From positions 2,312,122 through 2,376,121 of the forward strand of contig NZ_CP065592.1 in the NCBI RefSeq assembly GCF_016025255.1: 64,000 nucleotides of DNA, written 5' to 3'. The notes beneath the pieces were generated by a model. The model was given only the letters and a program-made list of their open reading frames with translations. It searched no databases and was not told where the DNA came from. Below are positions 42,541 to 60,624 of the stretch, piece by piece; the first letter of the stretch is position 1, and the number at the start of each line of letters is the position of its first letter. Both the position numbers and the translations under genes were made by a program. Source of the stretch: Sphingosinicella flava (GTDB lineage: Bacteria; Pseudomonadota; Alphaproteobacteria; Sphingomonadales; Sphingomonadaceae).

Positions 42541-42609
42541 TCCGTTCGTGCCGAGCGAAGTCGAGGCGCGCTCGTGCTGACGCCCCTCGACTTCGCTCGG
42601 GACGAACGA
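42541..42609. repeat. Palindromic repeat with GAGCGAAGTCGAG core, intergenic copy
   Basis: Two inverted arms, CCGTTCGTGCCGAGCGAAG... and ...CTTCGCTCGGGACGAACG, fill the gap between ileS and lspA. Each arm can fold on its own around the core GAGCGAAGTCGA. The same element is found inside ileS. Confidence 0.85.
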
Positions 42610-46797: not shown

Positions 46798-48428
<1,631 letters not shown>

Positions 48429-51677: not shown

Positions 51678-51699
51678 TCATTTTCTCCAATGGACTGTA

Positions 51700-51758
51700 T
51701 CCCGGCGAAGGCCGGGATCCAGATACTTTGTCGGGCTGGATCCCGGCCTTCGCCGGGA
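51700..51758. repeat. TCCCGGCGAAGGCCGGGATCC palindromic repeat
   Basis: A perfect 23-base inverted repeat (51700-51722 and 51736-51758) with a 13-base loop between mrcA and prfB. Each arm is a hairpin too. It resembles the element in the 5' end of the BepA-like gene. Confidence 0.9.
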
Positions 51759-51781
51759 CACGGCGTGCCCTGCATGCACGC

Positions 51782-58246: not shown

Positions 58247-58287
58247 CGCACTTCATCGGCTGTTCAGCCGCCGGGAAGGATAAGCGG

Positions 58288-59721
58288 ATGATGGGTCAAA
58301 GCGCACATCGTGCTCCGGCGGAGGCCGGAGCCCAGTCCTTCGATCAGCGCCGCTGGACTCCGGCCTCCGCCGGAGCACAAATTGTGCGATACGTCATGCT
58401 CCTGGCGTTGAGCTTCGCCGCGTTCGTCCAGCCCGCCGCCGCGCAATCCATCCTCCGCGATGCCGAAACCGAAGCCTTGTTCAAGGACATGTCCCGCCCG
58501 ATCGTCGCGGCGTCGGGCCTGAGGCCGGAAAATGTCGAGATCGTGCTGATCGGCGACAATTCGATCAATGCCTTCGTCTCGCAAGGCCAGGTCGTCTACA
58601 TCCATTCCGGCCTGATCGCCGCTGCCGACAATGCCAATGAGGTGCAGGGCGTCATCGCCCACGAGCTTGGCCATATCACCGGCGGCCACGTCATCCGCTA
58701 CAGTCAGGGCGCCGGGACCGCGACCGGCATCACCATCCTGTCCCTGCTCCTCGGCGTTGCCGCCGTCGCGGCGGGGGCCGGGGAGGCGGGCGCGGGCATC
58801 ATGGCGGCGGGCCAGCAGGCGGCGATGGGCAAGTTCCTCGCTTTCCTGAAGGCGGAAGAATCGAGCGCGGATCAGGCGGGTGCCAAATTCCTCTCCGGCG
58901 CAGGGGTTAGCGGGAAGGGCTCGCTCTCTTTCTTCAAGAAATTGCAGAACCAGGAATTCCGCCTCGCCATCCCGCAGGAGGATAGCTACGGCCGCACCCA
59001 CCCCTTGTCGGGCGAGCGCATTCAATGGCTCGAGGCGCGCTACCGCGCCGATCCCGCGTGGGACAAAAAGACGGATCCGGCGATCGAAGCGCGTTTTCAG
59101 CGCGTGAAGGCGAAGCTCGCGGGCTTCGTCAACGACCCGCGCCAGACGCTCATCGCCTATCCCGAAACCAACAAGAGCATGCCCGCCCGCTATGCCCGGG
59201 CCTATGCCTATCACAAGACCGCTTTCCCCGACAAAGCGGTCGCGGAAGTGGACAGCCTGCTCGCCGAAGCGCCGCACGACCCCTATTTCCTTGAGCTCAA
59301 GGGCCAGGTTCTGCTCGAATCCGGTCGCCCGGCCGAGGCCGTGGAAGCCTTGCGCGACGCGGTCGCGCAAGCGCCCGATCAGCCGCTCATTTCGGCCCTT
59401 TTCGGCCACGCGTTGATCGCGACCGAGGATCCGAAGAATTTCGAGGAAGCGAAGGGTGTGCTCCGCGCCGCCGTCGCGCGCGACAATTCCAATCCCTTCG
59501 CCTGGTATCAACTTGGCATCATCTACGACCGCGAAGGCGACACGGCCCGCGCCGCACTGGCAACGGCGGAGCGGTATAATCTGCAGGGCGATCCGAAGCT
59601 CGCCCTTGCCAGCGCGCAACAGGCGCTCCACGGCATTCCGGAAAACAGCGCTGACTGGCTGCGCGCGCAGGATATCAAGATGGTGGCCGAAGAGGCGATC
59701 AGGAAAGACAAGAAACGGTGA
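58288..59721 (+). CDS. BepA-like M48 metalloprotease with TPR repeats
   Basis: An exported protease-chaperone of about 477 residues. The zinc motif HELGH lies in GVIAHELGHITGGH, followed by a hydrophobic segment and a third ligand Glu in FLKAEESSADQAG. The C-terminal half holds four TPR-like helical pairs, as in E. coli BepA (YfgC), which assists LptD and BamA assembly. The start is debatable. ATG 58288 follows a strong GGAAGGA but puts a palindromic-repeat-encoded stretch ahead of the signal peptide (MLLALSFAAFVQPAAAQ). GTG 58384 or ATG 58393 would give a clean signal peptide but have no ribosome site. Its stop overlaps the DsbA-like gene (GTGA). Confidence 0.9.
   Translation: MMGQSAHRAPAEAGAQSFDQRRWTPASAGAQIVRYVMLLALSFAAFVQPAAAQSILRDAETEALFKDMSRPIVAASGLRPENVEIVLIGDNSINAFVSQGQVVYIHSGLIAAADNANEVQGVIAHELGHITGGHVIRYSQGAGTATGITILSLLLGVAAVAAGAGEAGAGIMAAGQQAAMGKFLAFLKAEESSADQAGAKFLSGAGVSGKGSLSFFKKLQNQEFRLAIPQEDSYGRTHPLSGERIQWLEARYRADPAWDKKTDPAIEARFQRVKAKLAGFVNDPRQTLIAYPETNKSMPARYARAYAYHKTAFPDKAVAEVDSLLAEAPHDPYFLELKGQVLLESGRPAEAVEALRDAVAQAPDQPLISALFGHALIATEDPKNFEEAKGVLRAAVARDNSNPFAWYQLGIIYDREGDTARAALATAERYNLQGDPKLALASAQQALHGIPENSADWLRAQDIKMVAEEAIRKDKKR
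58310..58378. repeat. Palindromic repeat in the 5' coding region of the BepA-like gene
   Basis: A perfect 21-base inverted repeat: GTGCTCCGGCGGAGGCCGG... (58310-58330) and its partner (58358-58378), with four further pairs inside. It is 69 bases long, a multiple of three, and contains no stop in the gene's frame. Confidence 0.9.
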
Positions 59722-60476: not shown

Positions 60477-60512
60477 AAAAAGCAACCATTCCAATCACGC
60501 GAAGGAAGAACC

Positions 60513-60597
60513 GTCATTCCAGCGAAAGCTGGAATCTAACAATGTTCGTCACAAGGCGGAGAAGCCAGCCTGAGATTCCAGCTTTCGCTGGAATGCC
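60513..60597. repeat. CATTCCAGC/GCTGGAATC repeat, copy 2
   Basis: Arms CATTCCAGCGAAAGC... (from 60515) and ...GCTTTCGCTGGAATG (to 60595) are perfectly complementary over 23 bases, with a 35-base centre. It lies between the convergent DsbA-like gene and rlmE. Confidence 0.88.
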
Positions 60598-60624
60598 GGC
60601 TAAAAGAGTGGAAAGCCGACCGCT

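Follow-up and report, generated by a model that had tools for sequence, protein, structure and literature searches.

An in-frame twin-REP element, probably translated, in the signal-peptide n-region of an M48/TPR protease gene of Sphingosinicella flava

REPs tagged by CGTC or GTAG are dispersed short palindromes, often arranged as inverted dimers, and parts of the work describing them (PMC3733652) present them as common in alphaproteobacteria, including sphingomonads, and the CGTC type as being without a dedicated transposase. Intragenic REPs are treated in the same parts as a minority, in which dimers or groups encode 20-30 residues, some at N-termini, and the N-terminal cases are flagged as possibly extragenic, with the real start downstream. 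The classic precedent for in-frame palindromic repeats in conserved genes is that of the Rickettsia palindromic elements (RPEs; Ogata 2000/2002), as recounted in passages of PMC6649704 and PMC3733652. Two inverted REPs around a spacer, which form one hairpin and are dispersed as a unit, are known as REPINs (PMC3116915).

The window analysed here is a stretch of 64,000 nucleotides from S. flava (contig NZ_CP065592.1). It carries a gene on the plus strand (58291-59721), flanked by an RNase E/G gene and a DsbA-like gene, that encodes an M48 metallopeptidase with TPR repeats, in which Pfam detected PF01435 (E 5e-27) together with TPR families. The hydrophobic signal core and likely cleavage region of this protein (MLLALSFAAFVQPAAAQ; 58396-58449, plus strand) are conserved in its orthologs. 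The protein had been described as a BepA-like protease, and its M48 and TPR domains bear out the likeness; they do not make it BepA proper, and its score of 160.4 bits falls far short of the 570 bits set as the NCBIfam equivalog cut-off for BepA.

Just upstream of the signal core lies an inverted repeat that occupies exactly 58310-58378, as delimited from the sequence and with a repeat finder. It is 23 codons long and consists of a left REP arm (GTGCTCCGGCGGAGGCCGGAGCCCAG; 58310-58335, plus strand), a 17-nt spacer (58336-58352, plus strand) and an inverted right REP arm (58353-58378, minus strand). The arms, each of 26 nt, are complementary at 25 of 26 positions and pair as 21 bp, one mismatch and a further 4-5 bp. 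An earlier note on this DNA had called the repeat a perfect palindrome of 69 bases; its position and its hairpin with 21 unbroken base pairs stand, but the single mismatch and the non-palindromic spacer mean that it is not perfect. The RNA fold of 58310-58378 has a free energy of -58.6 kcal/mol (z = -8.6), which none of 200 dinucleotide shuffles equalled. Arms of 35 nt, as returned by the repeat finder, were rejected: the extra outer bases differ in the related species Allosphingosinicella vermicomposti and fall outside the family consensus, and they were treated as flank. Simple scans found neither an intrinsic terminator nor a sigma-70 promoter near the element, and an Rfam search of the element gave only sub-threshold microRNA matches, which long hairpins readily produce.

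The arm core CCGGCGNARGCCGG is present throughout the S. flava genome (G000), where the single-arm pattern with up to 2 mismatches gave 60 matches, compared with 6 for the reversed control. The exact twin pattern occurred 39 times in S. flava and 60 times in A. vermicomposti KCTC 22446 (G019), and the reversed-pattern control gave 0. The window repeat is one copy of this dispersed twin-REP family (REP dimer, or REPIN-like). When the S. flava twins were aligned with their flanks, the commonest arm was (T/C)GTGCTCCGGCGNARGCCGGAGCCCAG; (T/C)GTGC or a near variant heads the arms in the window and in most family members, and CGTC is carried by a few other twins. The CCA-type unpaired tail is present, the window arms finishing in ..GCCCAG and ..GTCCAG. 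The window arms resemble the CGTC REP superfamily in this tail but are without its defining CGTC tag. No match to the Y1 (RAYT) transposase family PF01797 was found in S. flava or A. vermicomposti; one was seen in another genome (G018, L061).

Both arms of a twin share the same core variant in 20 of the 39 S. flava twins, compared with 12.1 expected for shuffled arms (p 0.0045), which could reflect either correction from arm to arm or subfamily structure. Other inverted-repeat elements are also found in the window, at 60511-60599, 48344-48428, 42543-42608 and 51697-51761, the first two being headed by CGTC.

A match to the protease was obtained in 97 of 98 related genomes. The nearest ortholog, that of A. 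vermicomposti (85% identity), carries the element too, with identical position, frame and length, while the element is absent from the 23 other same-genus orthologs compared. In these 23, an in-frame ATG stands 18-24 codons before the signal core, and exactly 19 codons before it in 16 (13 placed by script and 3 by eye, the script having picked a second, downstream ATG in the latter, where the 19-codon start was read from the sequence). Their start often reads ATGGCTGAAGC, with a GG-rich ribosome site before it. The element-free orthologs have a shorter n-region, and not an extended N-terminus that merely happens to be devoid of palindromic symmetry. The comparison of 5' ends with and without the repeat, which the earlier note had proposed, places the upstream start and its ribosome site as ancestral and genus-wide.

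The window gene opens with tandem start codons (ATG ATG, 58288-58293, plus strand), of which the second, at 58291, is the better match to the ancestral start. A ribosome-site-like GGGAAGGA (58273-58280, plus strand) precedes ATG 58288 by 7 nt and the in-frame ATG 58291 by 10 nt, and same-genus orthologs repeatedly show a GG-rich, GGATA-like stretch ahead of their start. From the ATG, the reading frame is open via the repeat into the signal core at 58396. ATG 58291 stands 35 codons before the core instead of 19, so that extra residues do exist relative to the orthologs, but they amount to a net 16 codons, not the roughly 30 previously supposed. Since the element itself has 23 codons, about seven ancestral codons were lost or had gone earlier. 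The insertion is older than the split of S. flava and A. vermicomposti. Same-genus orthologs also share a TTCATCNNNNGTTCAGGCG-like stretch shortly before the start (58249-58268), which may serve as a promoter or as a site for a regulator.

Between the two element-bearing species, the element codons have a dN of 0.16 and a dS of 0.14, small numbers that rest on about 10 changes, and the mature part has a dN of 0.09 and a dS of 0.66. Given that dN and dS in the element are about equal, the encoded repeat peptide is without amino-acid selection, while the mature protease is under purifying selection. The nucleotide sequence of the element is, if anything, more conserved than the other synonymous sites of the gene, and its low dS fits a repeat maintained either through its structure or through copying from one arm to the other.

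To find other coding copies, the 39 S. flava twins were screened by codon score and then by homology. The codon score discriminates poorly against antisense frames, and a copy was therefore counted only if it had homology on both flanks. Five of the 39 were judged to lie inside a gene on these two grounds, which stand in for a full gene annotation, and the family is mostly extragenic. Besides the protease copy, these are in-frame twins in rsmB (G000:1797176-1797235; L184), egtB (G000:1914729-1914788; L185), a cysteine desulfurase gene (G000:846146-846205; L174) and nnr (G000:855853-855912; L175). In alignments, the four inserts sit between conserved blocks and most relatives are without them: that of rsmB is a decayed in-frame copy in A. 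vermicomposti and absent in the ten others aligned, and those of egtB and nnr are absent in A. vermicomposti and the others aligned. As the element lies in the middle of the enzyme in all four, a later start cannot bypass it, and the gene structure suggests that such hairpins are translated in the S. flava genome. Seven further candidates with long open frames (L161, L162, L166, L173, L179, L180 and L186) were rejected or left undecided, on the grounds of a poor coding score on one side, a position upstream of a gene start (glmS, L161) or the lack of a Pfam domain, the Pfam scan covering L166, L179 and L180.

In A. vermicomposti, 1 of the 37 twins examined lies in frame inside mtaB (L256:560-2144, minus strand). 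The loop of the cysteine desulfurase (gene at G000:845202-846515) was compared with six orthologs (L216 to L220 and L225), and different same-genus genomes carry different in-frame palindromes there (the REP of the window, a TTCGTCCCGAGCGAAGTCGAGGGGCG type, a GGGACATGTACTTGTACGTGTCCCC type and a compound one), while others carry none. This makes the loop an insertion hotspot.

Taken as a whole, the data are best explained by an in-frame twin-REP in the n-region of the signal peptide, translated from the ancestral ATG 58291 (or 58288), and we put the probability of this reading at about 0.8. In the common ancestor of S. flava and A. vermicomposti, a REPIN-like miniature element would have entered the gene of an M48/TPR envelope protease at the n-region of the signal peptide, where constraint is poor. 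Because the element has no stop codon in this frame and altered the length by a net multiple of three, the gene would have survived. Translation would start at the ancestral ATG 58291 (or 58288) with the ancestral ribosome site, and the elongating ribosome would open the hairpin. The stretch before the hydrophobic core would then have 35 residues instead of 19, all of which should be lost when the signal peptide is cleaved off, and the inserted peptide would probably be neutral cargo. One of the two options in the earlier note, that the repeat was tolerated as coding, is well supported by the ancestral start and ribosome site, by the frame and length kept in A. vermicomposti and by the four other coding copies.

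The other option, that initiation has moved to a GTG or ATG after the repeat, is disfavoured because the hairpin occludes the GTG and the upstream start has been kept. If initiation were at GTG 58384 (58384-58386, plus strand), the product MRYVMLLALSFAAFVQPAAAQ would have a canonical signal peptide, GGAG within the right arm (58372-58375 on the plus strand, 8 nt before the GTG) would be the ribosome site with its access controlled by the hairpin, and the upstream ATG and repeat would be a 5' leader or a small upstream reading frame. With this GGAG, GGGAAGGA and its ATG keep their place upstream of the repeat but are no longer the only good pair, as had been held: the duplex with the anti-SD is worth -5.8 kcal/mol for GGAG and -6.5 kcal/mol for the upstream site. 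GGAG and GTG 58384 are conserved in A. vermicomposti, yet so are GGGAAGGA and the ATGATGGGTCAA start, which are identical in both element-bearing species, and the GGAG is buried in a stem whose opening costs about 41 kcal/mol. The dN/dS of the element by itself separates neither case, since an untranslated leader would show the same neutral ratio as a repeat peptide without amino-acid selection; but the 105 bp (35 codons) preceding the core have stayed free of stops and frameshifts, with 0 indels between the two species, and in four other genes translation has to pass through members of this element family. N-terminal REPs are, according to parts of PMC3733652, often extragenic with the real start downstream, a warning that the window case passes because its ancestral start is upstream of the repeat. 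We therefore consider a start at GTG 58384 unlikely. It is still less probable that the element is a switch between two signal peptides, a long one begun at the ancestral start and a short, canonical one begun at GTG 58384; if it were, the hairpin of the repeat would both supply and hide the ribosome site of GTG 58384, and only ribosomes in the act of translating the repeat would expose it.

To leaderless-style initiation at ATG 58396 we give almost no credence: orthologs often have an ATG or CTG in this position, but the site before it pairs with the anti-SD at only -1.5 kcal/mol, which amounts to no ribosome site, a signal peptide begun here would lack a positive n-region, and the element-free orthologs have an ATG and ribosome site about 19 codons upstream. 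The stable hairpin, which begins 19 nt after ATG 58291, might also be thought to disable or strongly lower expression and to leave a gene on its way to a pseudogene. This is very improbable, as the reading frame is intact in both element-bearing species, the mature part is under clear purifying selection between them, and the start region is no less accessible than that of relatives: opening -20 to +13 around ATG 58291 costs 14.6-19.7 kcal/mol, depending on the amount of flank folded, compared with 9.5-37.5 kcal/mol (median 18) in element-free orthologs. With a predicted accessibility that is ordinary for the gene family, the suggestion that the insertion has reshaped expression finds no backing.

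Translated from its ancestral start, the protease gene would clearly exemplify a mobile palindrome that has become coding sequence where an exported protein is most permissive, and the states before and after insertion are visible in relatives. Together with the four other in-frame copies and the cysteine desulfurase loop, it suggests that in free-living sphingomonads conserved proteins repeatedly gain peptide segments from REP-type elements, as they do from RPEs in Rickettsia.

As for the host protein, the M48 peptidase and TPR domains and the signal peptide are what it shares with BepA; it scores far below the equivalog cut-off, and a role in outer-membrane quality control would be putative. 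With CGTC/GTAG REPs, the element shares the dispersed inverted dimer, the CCA-type tail and a coding minority in S. flava. Its arms differ in beginning with (T/C)GTGC instead of CGTC, the missing Y1 transposase in both genomes matches the remark on the CGTC type in the available part of PMC3733652, and neither the protease gene nor S. flava is among the cases named in that part. The 26-nt inverted arms, 17-nt spacer, single hairpin and many dispersed copies are those of a REPIN, except that neither genome yielded a cognate RAYT transposase. Compared by description and not by sequence, RPEs differ in host order and GC content, and only a small fraction of the S. flava copies is coding; like RPEs, the element is inserted in frame in conserved protein genes, with identity decaying over time and the host protein retained, and such RPE-like insertions with element-free orthologs are found in the bepA-like gene, rsmB, egtB, the cysteine desulfurase gene and nnr.
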